Positions 16,861 to 23,319 of a stretch of DNA of 64,000 nucleotides are shown piece after piece (the first letter of the stretch is position 1; each line of letters opens with the position of its first letter). Below the pieces are notes generated by a model. It was given only the letters and a program-made list of their open reading frames with translations. It did not search any database and was not told the DNA's origin. The DNA is from Thermodesulfobacterium hveragerdense DSM 12571 (lineage in GTDB: Bacteria; Desulfobacterota; Thermodesulfobacteria; Thermodesulfobacteriales; Thermodesulfobacteriaceae). Both the position numbers and the translations under genes were made by a program. The stretch is from contig NZ_AUIT01000007.1 in assembly GCF_000423845.1 (NCBI RefSeq), positions 1 through 64,000 on the forward strand. The letters are read 5' to 3'.

Positions 16861-18543
16861 TTAAAACACTGGATAAATTCTGTCTGCAACCATAGAGGTT
16901 TTTGTTACCTTAGGACCAAAAGGAGCTTGTTTCCTTTTAAACTCTGCCTTTTTCACCATAGATAAAACCTTTTCTACCACTGATTTCTCAAAACCTTTTT
17001 CTATGATAGAGTTAACAGAGGCTTTTTTTTCAAAGTATAGCTCTAAAATTTGATCAAGTATTTCATAAGGTGGTAAAACTTCATAGTCTGTTTGGCCAGG
17101 ACGTAGTTCAGCAGAAGGAACTTTTAACAAAACCCTTTCTGGGATGTCAGGCTTTAAACCGTTCCTGTATTTAGCAAGTCTGTAAACCATCGTCTTATAA
17201 ACGTCTACTATAGGAGCAAACCCTCCGGCTATATCTCCATAAAGCGTCCCATACCCAACCGCTGCCTCGCTTTTGTTTGAGGTACAAAGAACTAAGTATC
17301 CTTTCTTGTTAGAAAGATAAAAAAGGATATTAGCTCGCAAACGAGCCTGAAGGTTTTCGTCTGCCACGTCAAACTCAGGATAACCAAAGGTTTTCCTAAA
17401 GGTTTCAAAGACCTCATCTATAGGATATTCTAAAAGCTCTATTCCTAAATTTTGAGCTAATTTCGTGGCGTCTTCTCTACTTTCTTTAGAGGTAAAAGAA
17501 GAAGGCATAAAAACTCCAACCACCCTGTCTTTACCTAAGGCATCAACCGCTATACAAGCTACCAGAGAAGAATCTATACCTCCAGAAAGTCCTAAAACAA
17601 CCTTTTTGAAACCTCTTTTTTCTACATAATCTCTTAAAGCTAAAACTAAAGCTTTATAAACTTCCTCTTCTTCAGAAAACTTAGCCTCTATTTTCCCTGT
17701 AAAACTTAAAGGCCTTCTTCCGTCTTCCAAAAAAACCTCATCAAAAAAACAACACATACAAGGTTCTTTTTCCTTTTTAAGTTGAATATTAGATAATTTC
17801 TTTCTCAAGATTGTTTCACAATCTATTGATAAAATGCAGAAATCTTCTTTAAATCCAGAAAGAAGGGTTACTATTTCTTCGTAAGGGTCTATTACCAAAC
17901 TTCTTCCGTCAAAAACCCAACGTTCATGTCCACCTATTAGATTTACACAAGCCACATAAGCATTAAACCTTTGAGTTAAGGCTTGGAATACCTTTTCTCT
18001 TTCTTTAAAAGACCCTTGATAGTAAGGAAAAACCCCTAAGTTTATCAAAAGGTCTACATCCATCTGGTTGTAGAAATGAAACCATCCGTTATCTTTCCAG
18101 CAATCCCAACCTATACTAACTCCTATTTTAAATGTATTAAAGTTTATGATCAAAGGTTTAACCCCTGGATGAAAATACCTTCCTTCATTGAAGGCTTCAT
18201 CTAAACAGCGTTTATGATATTCTGCCAATATCGTCCCTTTTTTTATTACCAAAGCACTGTTAAACAGTCCTCGGTTAAAGTAAGGGGTACCTATAATAAG
18301 GGTAGAATTGAAGTTTTCTGAGGCCTTTACCAACCTTTGTATGGTTTGTTTTAAGTTTAGTAAAAAATCTGTTTCAAAAAAAAGATCTGCTGGGAAAAAA
18401 CCAGAAAGGGCAAGTTCTGGGAAAATTACTATGTGGGAATACCCGTCAACTTGCCCCCAAAATTCTAAAACTCTATTCAAGTTGTAATCAAAATTTCCTA
18501 AAACTGGGTCTATTTGGACCAAAGCTATGTTTAGCTTATCCAT
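16861..18543 (-). CDS. nadE: NAD+ synthetase, glutamine-type with altered glutaminase site
   Basis: 560 residues. Residues 1-265 are a nitrilase-fold glutaminase; 280-560 are the ATP-pyrophosphatase synthetase with LGLSGGIDSSLVACIAVDALG and the adenylate/PPi site. The synthetase forms NAD+ from deamido-NAD+, ATP and ammonia. The glutaminase triad should be Glu-Lys-Cys. Glu43 (FPELALSG) and Lys111 (AEYHKRC) are present, but the usual ICEDxW reads IGWDCW, so the nucleophile position (145) is Gly and the only nearby Cys is 148. Flanking motifs (INLGVFPYYQG, VNLIGGHERWVFDG) anchor the alignment. The enzyme may use free ammonia. Located 16 nt after glnA on the same strand, so likely cotranscribed. 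Confidence 0.9.
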   Translation of the reverse strand: MDKLNIALVQIDPVLGNFDYNLNRVLEFWGQVDGYSHIVIFPELALSGFFPADLFFETDFLLNLKQTIQRLVKASENFNSTLIIGTPYFNRGLFNSALVIKKGTILAEYHKRCLDEAFNEGRYFHPGVKPLIINFNTFKIGVSIGWDCWKDNGWFHFYNQMDVDLLINLGVFPYYQGSFKEREKVFQALTQRFNAYVACVNLIGGHERWVFDGRSLVIDPYEEIVTLLSGFKEDFCILSIDCETILRKKLSNIQLKKEKEPCMCCFFDEVFLEDGRRPLSFTGKIEAKFSEEEEVYKALVLALRDYVEKRGFKKVVLGLSGGIDSSLVACIAVDALGKDRVVGVFMPSSFTSKESREDATKLAQNLGIELLEYPIDEVFETFRKTFGYPEFDVADENLQARLRANILFYLSNKKGYLVLCTSNKSEAAVGYGTLYGDIAGGFAPIVDVYKTMVYRLAKYRNGLKPDIPERVLLKVPSAELRPGQTDYEVLPPYEILDQILELYFEKKASVNSIIEKGFEKSVVEKVLSMVKKAEFKRKQAPFGPKVTKTSMVADRIYPVF

Positions 18544-20046: not shown

Positions 20047-21627
20047 CTATCCTAAAAGGATTTCATAAGCTTTTTCCATATCTGCTTCCATCACATAAGG
20101 AATACCAGTAACTTCGGCAGCTTCTTTGGTAAGGGCTACCAAATCGTTTCTGTCAAGATATTCGATAGAGAATTTTCTCGCTCCAGCCATAAGCTGCTTC
20201 AACCCGATGGTAAGTCTTTCTATAAAAGTATACATAGCTACAGCGCCCCAAGGTATTTTTTCAAAATCTTTTCCATATTTGTTTTTAAGCACCTCTGTGT
20301 TGATAAAAATCTGTTCTAAGGACTCACCATACTTTTTAATCTCAGGAGGAAGTTTTCCTTCTTTATACCAGTTAGCGATGTTTTTACCTACAAAGGCTGG
20401 GATCATTAAAGCTCTTCCCATACAAACTGCCTTAAAGAAAGGAGCTCCAAGAGCCAAGGCTTTAAAAATGTGGTCTTCCAAAGAAAAACCACCTGCTATC
20501 GCTAAATCAGGGACATATTTTCCTCTGGCTGCAAGTTCTTTAGCAAAGTTGTAAGCTATAGCCTGTAAGTAAATAGTAGGAATACCCCACTCGTTCATCA
20601 TTCTCCAAGGGCTCATACCAGTCCCACCACCAGCTCCGTCTATCGTAACAAGGTCGATACCAGCATCAGAAGCAAACCTTAAAGCTCTGGCAAGGTCTGT
20701 AATCTTGTAGGCACCTGTTTTTAAAGAAACAAACTTAGCTCCAGCCTTTCTGTAGTGTTCTACAGTCTTCATAAAATCGTCATAATCTACCATCCCAAGC
20801 CTTGAGTGTCTTTCAAACTCCTTGATTTCACCTTTTTTAAAGGCTTCTTGAATAACAGGGTTTTCTGGGTCAGGAACAACGATATAACCTCTTTTTTTAA
20901 GCTCTAAAGCTCTTTCCAAGGTTTTTAACTTAACCTCTCCTCCGATGTCTTTAGCTCCCTGTCCCCATTTTATTTCAATACAGTTAACCCCTAACTTTTC
21001 TATGGCATATTCAGCAGAACCAAGCCTTGAGTCCTCTACGTTCTGTTGCAAAATGACCTCTCCATAACCATCATACCAATTCTTGAAAGCCTTTACCCTT
21101 CTTTCAAGCTCTGGAGACTTAGTAACTTTTCCGCTTTTAAACTTGGCTTCTGGGTCCATACCTACCACGTTTTCTCCGATAACTACCATAATACCAGAAA
21201 TAGCAGCGCCGATGGCTAATTCATCCCAGTTGTTCTTAGCTATATCAGTAGAACCTAAAGCACCGGTAAAAATAGGAATACGAAGTTTGATTTTGTAATT
21301 TCTACCTATCTCTCTTTCTGTGTTAACTGCAGGGAAGGTAGCTTTGTCTGGATCTGGATCAACACCTACAGCCCCTACACAAGTACCTTGGATGTTAAGA
21401 TGAGAGTAATCTACAGGATATTTTTTAGTAGCACCAGCGATAACCTTTCCAAAAGGTTGAGGATAAAGGACCTCTCTTCCTCTAAAAGAGGACTTACCTA
21501 TTTCACAAAAACCCGGACAGCCATCTAAACAAACAGAACAAATCCCAGAGTATGGTGCCGGGTCAGAAACCCTATTACGAGTACCTGTAGCAGAACTAGC
21601 ATTAGGTTGACCTGGATAAATGCTCAT
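20047..21627 (-). CDS. FMN-dependent glutamate synthase-type protein
   Basis: 526 residues. An N-terminal cysteine cluster (CSVCLDGCPGFCEIG, residues about 30-44) probably binds an Fe-S centre. Residues about 85-500 are the glutamate synthase alpha-subunit central domain: FTGALGSTDIA, EIKWGQGAKDIGGE, VSLKTGAYKITDLA, TIDGAGGGTGMSPWRMMNEWG (FMN barrel) and AIAGGFSLEDHIFKALALGA. The amidotransferase (N-terminal Cys) domain is missing, as in archaeal-type split enzymes. It reduces 2-oxoglutarate plus glutamine nitrogen to glutamate, working with the adjacent glutamine synthetase. A sigma-54-like site lies upstream, and a NifA-type activator is the next gene upstream on the same strand. GGAGGAGGG ribosome site. 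Confidence 0.88.
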   Translation of the reverse strand: MSIYPGQPNASSATGTRNRVSDPAPYSGICSVCLDGCPGFCEIGKSSFRGREVLYPQPFGKVIAGATKKYPVDYSHLNIQGTCVGAVGVDPDPDKATFPAVNTEREIGRNYKIKLRIPIFTGALGSTDIAKNNWDELAIGAAISGIMVVIGENVVGMDPEAKFKSGKVTKSPELERRVKAFKNWYDGYGEVILQQNVEDSRLGSAEYAIEKLGVNCIEIKWGQGAKDIGGEVKLKTLERALELKKRGYIVVPDPENPVIQEAFKKGEIKEFERHSRLGMVDYDDFMKTVEHYRKAGAKFVSLKTGAYKITDLARALRFASDAGIDLVTIDGAGGGTGMSPWRMMNEWGIPTIYLQAIAYNFAKELAARGKYVPDLAIAGGFSLEDHIFKALALGAPFFKAVCMGRALMIPAFVGKNIANWYKEGKLPPEIKKYGESLEQIFINTEVLKNKYGKDFEKIPWGAVAMYTFIERLTIGLKQLMAGARKFSIEYLDRNDLVALTKEAAEVTGIPYVMEADMEKAYEILLG

Positions 21628-21777: not shown

Positions 21778-23319
21778 CTACTTTGTGAGTATACCATATT
21801 TTTTTATCCTATAGCTTATTTGTCTTTTGGTAAGCCCAAGCATCTTAGCGGCTTTAGTCTGGTTATATCTACACGCTTTAAGTGCCTCCTCTATAGCCTT
21901 CTTTTCTATGAGCTCTATATGATTAGGTAAAAGTCTTTCTTTAAAACCCTTTTCTTTTTTTATTTGATCTTCTAAAGAAGCTTGCCTTATATAAAAAGGA
22001 AGCTCTTCTAAAGTAATAAAATCTTTTTCTGCCAAAACTACCAACCTCTCCAACGTATTCTCAAGCTCCCTTACGTTTCCAGGCCAATGGTAAGCCATAA
22101 ACTTTTCCATTATCTCTGAAGAAATCTGTACGTTCTTGTTATACTCTTGATTAAATTTTTTAAGAAAATGGTCTACTAAAAGAGGGATGTCTTCTTTTCT
22201 TTCTCTTAGAGGAGGTAAATAAATAGGTATTACATTTAATCTAAAGTATAGGTCATCTCTGAAATTCCCTTCTCTTACCATTTCTTCTAAATCTCTGTTA
22301 GTTGCCGCTATAATCCTTACGTCAACCTTTATCGATTTAGTATCTCCTATCCTTTCAAAGGTCTTTTCTTGTATAACCCTTAAAATTTTAGCCTGTAAAG
22401 AAAGAGGTAAATCTCCTATTTCATCTAAGAAGATGGTTCCACCGTTAGCAAGTTCAAATTTACCTGGTTTTGAGATAAGAGCACCGGTAAAGGCTCCTTT
22501 TTTATAACCAAAAAGTTCCGCTTCAAGAAGGGTTTCAGGGATGGCAGCACAGTTAATAGCTATAAAAGGTCCATTAGCCCGATCGCTTTCAAAATGAATG
22601 GCCTTAGCTATAAGTTCTTTCCCTGTTCCACTCTCTCCTATAACTAAAATATTAGCTTTACACTTAGCAGCTTTAATGGCAAGCTTAAACACCTGCTGCA
22701 TCTTATCAGAAATACCGATAAGATTCCTAAATTGATACTTACCCTTAAGTTCTAAAGATAAGCTCTCTTTTTCTTCTTTCTCCTTTTTAAACATCTGATA
22801 GAGCTTTAAATATTGTGAAAATAGAGTAGCTACTATGTTTAAAAACCTGATATCCTCTTTAAGGTCTATTTCTTCGTTAAATATTCTATCTACTGAAAGA
22901 ACACCTAATACCTCGCCTTCTATCTTGAGAGGAACACACAAAAAAGAAATATTTTCTTTGGTTAATCTCGCTCCGGTTTTATTTAAAAACATTGGCTCCT
23001 TTCCGATGTTAGGTATAATTATAGGCTCTCCTGTATCAAAAACCTTTCCCACTATACCTTCACCCTTTTTATAAATACCTTTTTTAACCTGCTCTGGGGT
23101 AAGTCCATAAGCTACTGAGATATGTAAAGTGTTAGTTTCACTGTCATAAAGTGTTATGGTTGCTCTTTGCATGTCCAAAATGTCTGAAAGAACTTTTAAG
23201 CTTTTATAAAGATTATGCTGCATATTAAAAGAAGAACTTAAAATTTTACTGATCTCAAGTAAAGCTAAAAGTTCTTTATTTTTTCTTTCAAGCTGGTCTA
23301 ATACTTCCTGCTGAGGCAT
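21778..23319 (-). CDS. nifA: NifA-like sigma-54-dependent transcriptional activator
   Basis: 513 residues. GAF sensor domain at about 25-175 (VAYGLTPEQVKKGIYKKGEGIVGKV...GEVLGVLSVDRI). Central AAA+ domain at about 200-430 with Walker A GESGTGKE, the sigma-54 contact loop GAFTGA, Walker B TIFLDEIGDLP and the arginine finger region. C-terminal Fis-type helix-turn-helix (NQTKAAKMLGLTKRQISYRI), closest to NifA. It opens sigma-54 holoenzyme promoters in response to a small-molecule signal. No nif structural genes are in the window; the best target is the neighbouring glutamate synthase promoter, which is inference. Start overlaps the preceding gene by 32 nt. Confidence 0.88.
   Translation of the reverse strand: MPQQEVLDQLERKNKELLALLEISKILSSSFNMQHNLYKSLKVLSDILDMQRATITLYDSETNTLHISVAYGLTPEQVKKGIYKKGEGIVGKVFDTGEPIIIPNIGKEPMFLNKTGARLTKENISFLCVPLKIEGEVLGVLSVDRIFNEEIDLKEDIRFLNIVATLFSQYLKLYQMFKKEKEEKESLSLELKGKYQFRNLIGISDKMQQVFKLAIKAAKCKANILVIGESGTGKELIAKAIHFESDRANGPFIAINCAAIPETLLEAELFGYKKGAFTGALISKPGKFELANGGTIFLDEIGDLPLSLQAKILRVIQEKTFERIGDTKSIKVDVRIIAATNRDLEEMVREGNFRDDLYFRLNVIPIYLPPLRERKEDIPLLVDHFLKKFNQEYNKNVQISSEIMEKFMAYHWPGNVRELENTLERLVVLAEKDFITLEELPFYIRQASLEDQIKKEKGFKERLLPNHIELIEKKAIEEALKACRYNQTKAAKMLGLTKRQISYRIKKYGILTK

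Follow-up and report, generated by a model that had tools for sequence, protein, structure and literature searches.

A NadE protein encoded in the 64,000-nucleotide stretch of DNA analysed here (the window), from the thermophilic sulfate reducer Thermodesulfobacterium, is very probably an ammonia-dependent NAD synthetase, derived from a glutamine-dependent ancestor and carrying a dead nitrilase domain with a putative structural or tunnel role. The nitrilase domain has lost active-site residues, the synthetase motifs are intact, nadE is present once in the genome, and the dead domain is under purifying selection. From these observations we infer the loss of glutaminase activity, the use of ammonia as nitrogen donor, and a scaffold or tunnel role of the nitrilase domain.

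The nadE gene and its neighbourhood

The source genome (G000) comprises 1.73 Mb in 42 contigs. The nadE gene belongs to a cluster encoded on one strand:

16861..18543, minus strand, nadE, a fusion of nitrilase and NAD synthetase, open reading frame of 560 amino acids
18560..19942, minus strand, glnA, glutamine synthetase, 16 bases upstream of nadE
20047..21627, minus strand, glutamate-synthase-type protein (PF01645), upstream of glnA
21778..23319, minus strand, GAF and sigma-54 activator (NifA/NtrC-like regulator), upstream, within the nadE cluster

The window NadE is 97% identical to the protein of T. thermophilum DSM 1276 (L001). The Pfam domains are CN_hydrolase (residues 6-245) and NAD_synthase (296-540), and the NCBIfam model PRK13981.1 matches with 580.6 bits at a cut-off of 479. 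The predicted fold, from an AlphaFold2 model, resembles that of 3n05 (TM 0.81, E 3.5e-46). The Pfam, NCBIfam and structure matches all give an N-terminal nitrilase fold followed by a C-terminal synthetase, as expected for descent from a fused NadE. The best sequence and fold matches are glutamine-dependent NAD synthetases.

The order of regulator, glutamate-synthase-type gene, glnA and nadE on one strand is common to the window, T. thermophilum, and the genomes G010 and G013. The sequence-only reading had linked ammonia dependence to the position beside glnA. The two genes do adjoin, but their adjacency is not diagnostic of ammonia use, because glnA also lies next to nadE genes whose motif is intact (G002, G024, G026) and to short ammonia-type nadE genes (G005, G008). 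The adjacency was therefore rejected as evidence for ammonia use. The short nadE genes near glnA in G005 (L068) and G008 (L069) lie on the opposite strand, where relatives have the fused gene, and look like gene replacements in place.

Loss of the nucleophile and of much of the glutamine site

The nitrilase motif and the glutamine-site residues of the window NadE are encoded as follows:

18097..18114, minus strand, IGWDCW (residues 144-149) instead of ICEDxW, codons read directly: Ile144 18112-18114, Gly145 18109-18111, Trp146 18106-18108, Asp147 18103-18105, Cys148 18100-18102, Trp149 18097-18099
18415..18417, minus strand, Glu43, the acid/base Glu, kept (sequence comparison)
18211..18213, minus strand, Lys111, the catalytic Lys, kept (sequence comparison)
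18184..18207, minus strand, glutamine-contacting YRE loop region, residues 113-120 (alignments)
18397..18399, minus strand, Phe49 instead of the Tyr of 96% of Cys-bearing sequences (conservation comparison)
18028..18030, minus strand, Phe172 instead of a 98% conserved Ser (conservation comparison)
18010..18012, minus strand, Ser178 instead of a 97% conserved Lys (conservation comparison), at a position that we take to be equivalent to M. tuberculosis Arg209, which contacts the glutamine carboxylate

In HMMER alignments with the NadE chains 5kha, 3n05 and 4f4h, the motif region is ungapped: Gly145 lies under the nucleophile Cys, Trp146 under the adjacent Glu, Asp147 under the Asp and Trp149 under the Trp. 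The codons and the alignment agree with the sequence-only reading that the nucleophile is replaced by Gly145, and that Cys148 lies three residues from it on the far side of the conserved Asp147; Glu43 and Lys111 remain, as had also been noted. The same motif is present in four Thermodesulfobacterium species, namely that of the window, T. thermophilum (L001/L015, 97% identity), G013 (92%) and G010 (81%), and is therefore not due to chance or sequencing error. Of 141 distinct NadE nitrilase domains, mostly from Thermodesulfobacteriota, 130 have Cys at the nucleophile position; the eleven without Cys include these four.

The changes go further than was noticed before and affect the Glu beside the nucleophile, the loop and other residues of the pocket. 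Cys, Glu and Lys have catalytic roles in the family, and the loop Tyr and YRE loop contact glutamine (PMC6946656). The acid/base Glu and catalytic Lys correspond to Glu45 and Lys114 of the human enzyme, and the gating Glu next to the nucleophile to human Glu176 and M. tuberculosis Glu177 (PMC6946656). The residue at position 49 corresponds to Tyr51 in human and Tyr58 in M. tuberculosis, at constriction 1, and that at position 172, counted from the Cys, to human Ser202 beside the glutaminase site (PMC6946656). Of the catalytic triad, the window NadE retains Glu and Lys, together with the second catalytic Glu (Glu120) of the YRE loop and the Trp149 of the motif. The glutamine contacts made by the loop Tyr and the Glu beside the Cys are absent: the loop in the four-species clade has two residues fewer than that of Cys-bearing relatives and lacks Pro115 and the Tyr, and the Glu is replaced by Trp146.

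A conservation of 85% or more among the 130 Cys-bearing sequences is reached at 55 positions of the nitrilase half and 85 of the synthetase half. The window NadE keeps 37 of the former against 77 of the latter; its synthetase half thus looks normal. Cys-bearing sequences keep a median of 53 nitrilase positions (5th percentile 49, lowest 36; 128 rows, two dropped for gaps) and 83 synthetase positions (5th percentile 78, lowest 73; 123 rows, seven dropped for gaps). The changes at such nitrilase positions common to all four species are Tyr49 to Phe, Pro50 to Phe, loss of Pro115, Asp119 to Asn, Ser172 to Phe, Lys178 to Ser, Asp207 to Glu and Leu209 to Trp. Judged from its sequence, the nitrilase half is most likely catalytically dead and has lost its glutaminase activity. 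A point against this reading is the retention of Glu43, Lys111, Glu120 and Trp149, since a site in free decay would have no need of them.

Cys148 as a hypothetical shifted nucleophile

The sequence-only reading offered a shifted cysteine as the alternative to a dead domain. Cys148, or else Cys113 or Cys199, would then still hydrolyze glutamine together with Glu43 and Lys111. This is very unlikely, even though Glu120 is retained as well and the three cysteines are new in the clade, being invariant in the four species and found at those positions in none of the 130 Cys-bearing rows. Asp147 and Trp149 fix the register without a gap, and position 148 is normally hydrophobic, with Ile, Leu, Ala, Val or Ser in almost every Cys-bearing row. 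Three of the 59 readable Aquificota sequences, the subunits L225, L230 and L236, have ICEDCW with both cysteines, so a Cys at position 148 is tolerated there and is not a substitute. Moreover, the adjacent Glu, the loop Tyr, Tyr49, Ser172 and Lys178 have disappeared together with the nucleophile.

AlphaFold2 models were used for secondary structure and confidence; the window loop 114-126 has a pLDDT below 50. The window model has a strand at residues 138-144 and a helix at 145-148; residue 148 lies one turn into the helix, a point in favor of the shifted nucleophile. In the control model of the Cys-bearing L003, the strand spans residues 137-143 and the helix, which begins at its Cys, residues 144-148. 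The matching positions indicate that Gly145 occupies the nucleophile elbow. Alignment with NadE structures and orthologues does not bring Cys148 to the canonical nucleophile position; a placement there was rejected, as it needs compensating indels and the alignments contain none. Cys148 is thus probably not a relocated nucleophile.

Selection, NAD pathway and other nitrilase genes

The probability that nadE is a pseudogene in decay, or that its motif is an assembly error, is close to negligible. Strongly eroded nitrilase halves do occur in other members of the family (L035, L065), but the four independently assembled species have identical residues and an open frame; agreement of the four led us to discard an assembly error. 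Furthermore, the gene is the sole nadE of its genome, and dN/dS is well below 1 in both halves. It was calculated for five of the six pairs within the clade and for six chosen Cys-bearing pairs; the synonymous distance of L129/L131 is saturated in the synthetase half. The clade values are 0.15-0.20 for the nitrilase half and 0.06-0.09 for the synthetase half, and those of the Cys-bearing pairs, where the synonymous distance was computable, 0.05-0.13 and 0.04-0.07. Amino-acid distance in the nitrilase half, divided by that in the synthetase half, is 1.88-2.46 for the six clade pairs and has a median of 1.62 (5-95% range 0.88-2.21) for 94 Cys-bearing pairs. Both measures describe a nitrilase half that is somewhat relaxed yet clearly maintained. 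Its dN/dS exceeds that of most Cys-bearing pairs tested, a sign of partly relaxed constraint that counts against a maintained domain, but it is still under purifying selection.

A search of the genome gave only one full NadE match. NadA is present, and the genome has no match to PF04095, a family that we take to include both nicotinate and nicotinamide phosphoribosyltransferases. Amidation of nicotinic acid adenine dinucleotide (NaAD) should therefore be needed. Ammonia could also reach NadE from a separate glutaminase subunit that either passes it via the dead domain or replaces that domain. NadE enzymes made of two subunits have been described (PMC3376133), and the genome contains two other nitrilase-domain genes, one of which (L173; G000:C10:35229-35858, minus strand) has an intact ICFE motif. 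This arrangement is nonetheless extremely unlikely. In L173 the nitrilase is joined to a cytidylyltransferase-like domain. Open frames of about the same length that match nitrilase are spread across the family, also in relatives whose NadE motif is intact (G003, G007, G018), so that L173 is no evident substitute for the NadE glutaminase. The other gene, L175, looks by its sequence like the membrane apolipoprotein N-acyltransferase Lnt. A remote glutaminase was rejected since the genome has only these two candidates, neither of which is NadE-like or adjoins nadE.

Proposed mechanism of ammonia-dependent NAD synthesis

We propose that the nitrilase half, having lost the nucleophile and much of the glutamine site, would no longer hydrolyze glutamine. 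The C-terminal domain would adenylate NaAD, and free cellular ammonia would attack the adenylated intermediate. The dead domain may be retained to support the folded or assembled enzyme and the mouth of the ammonia tunnel. Known enzymes of the family also accept free ammonia (PMC6946656), and the C175Y variant of human NADSYN1 has nearly lost its glutamine activity while its ammonia activity is near that of the wild type (PMC10866660), which suggests direct use of ammonia by the window NadE. The idea of a dead fused domain in an ammonia-dependent enzyme, raised by the sequence-only reading, gains support from the pocket losses, the intact synthetase half, the sole NadE and the NADSYN1 precedent. 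A point against ammonia as donor is that glutamine is made next door, by the product of glnA.

The reason for keeping the domain is less certain than the use of ammonia. The second Glu and the YRE loop take part in the tunnel mouth (PMC6946656), and the interface between the NadE domains is extensive (PMC3376133); loss of the domain may therefore harm the synthetase. It is also conceivable, but unlikely, that the pocket has been rebuilt to control NAD synthesis, as a sensor or intake gate that responds to ammonium or a nitrogen metabolite, and that the glutamine-to-ammonia switch was repeated in this family of thermophiles. In that proposal Glu43, Lys111 and Glu120 are retained, Trp146 and Phe172 would occupy the glutamine site, and the gate or sensor would lie at the mouth of the old ammonia tunnel.

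Relation to known systems

Glutamine-dependent NadE enzymes (PRK13981; 5kha, 4f4h, 3n05) have the same domain order, fold and synthetase motifs as the window NadE, which however lacks their nucleophile Cys and adjacent Glu, has a shortened loop and further changes in the glutamine site, and is not expected to use glutamine. The single-domain NadE-NH3 enzymes share the expected nitrogen donor and, in G005 and G008, the proximity to glnA. This class needs no glutaminase domain, and the representatives from G005 and G008 (about 256-266 amino acids, 37-39% identical to the window synthetase half) have no nitrilase domain, which is present in the window NadE. The nucleophile position is changed, as in the window, in human NADSYN1 C175Y and M. 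tuberculosis NadE C176A; structures of the latter have been solved. However, C175Y is a disease allele and C176A a laboratory variant, whereas the state in the window is naturally fixed. Vertebrate CPS I is an amidotransferase without the catalytic Cys that uses free ammonia and has kept its dead domain (PMC7657897). Unlike NadE, it belongs to an unrelated family with a different, triad glutaminase.

Classification and annotation treat fused NadE proteins as glutamine users on the basis of their architecture (PMC3376133). The PRK13981 annotation is above its cut-off here despite the loss of the Cys, and the rule is broken by the clade and by six further sequence types of the same phylum; fusion to a nitrilase domain is thus no guarantee of glutamine use. 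In nature, these Cys-less NadE proteins stand midway between glutamine- and ammonia-dependent NAD synthesis, a position comparable to that of CPS I, and allow one to ask what a glutaminase domain does once it is unable to cut glutamine. That a glutamine amidotransferase can become ammonia-dependent is already known. For a fused NadE that lacks the Cys by nature, and hence for a naturally fixed and repeated case in NadE, our literature search, limited to sources outside subscription journals, returned no report, which is not proof of absence.

Distribution and number of Cys losses

The 141 distinct nitrilase sequences remain after removal of identical or contained ones. Rows without a nitrilase match (L036/L082, L066, L076, L103, L165, L169, L170) were omitted, and the short NadE loci L068-L071, which have no nitrilase domain, are outside the count. 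L040 and L139 were flagged for a missing or odd Glu43 region; both have the Cys. The eleven Cys-less sequences are the four of the clade, L020 (G022, with FWEDLW), L035 (G014), L065 (G029), L107 (G162), L125 (G101), L126 (G064) and L163 (G154). L035 and L065 have also lost the triad Glu and Lys from their nitrilase halves and have normal synthetase halves. L163 (G154:C33) has Ser for the nucleophile Cys and keeps 49 of the 55 conserved nitrilase positions. The fused L126 (G064:C4:63490-65103) is accompanied by a Cys-bearing second copy on G064:C7, and L107 (G162:C20:20604-22244) by a Cys-bearing copy on G162:C28 that is cut by the contig end. The Cys-less copies in these two genomes are thus paralogues, which may have another substrate. 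G101 has one NadE copy only.

Among 30 genomes of the family searched, the motif is readable in 23, and the Cys is missing in seven of these. The 14 genomes of the genus include four with a fused Cys-less NadE, four with a fused Cys-bearing one (G002, G003, G006, G007), three with the short form (G005, G008, G009), and one with a fragment of it (G012). G004 (93% complete) and G011 (70% complete) gave weak partial NadE matches and no strong one, which may reflect an assembly gap or another NAD route.

A synthetase tree built from 35 rows places the window clade together with the Cys-bearing G002 (support 84/86), and parsimony on this tree gives six changes. A tree that joins L020, L035 and L065 is not rejected by the AU test (p 0.40); one that joins every one of the seven family rows is rejected by a narrow margin (p 0.0465). 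On a safe estimate the Cys was lost separately between three and six times, the exact number being uncertain.

The Cys is kept in all 59 readable Aquificota sequences, whether fused or in separate subunits; the sample comprised 60 loci, of which L237 has no nitrilase match, and G242 was left out. One Aquificota sequence, L192 (G203:C19), has the Cys, a glutamine-contacting loop four residues shorter, and Gln in place of the loop Glu. It possibly represents an early stage in the loss of glutamine use.
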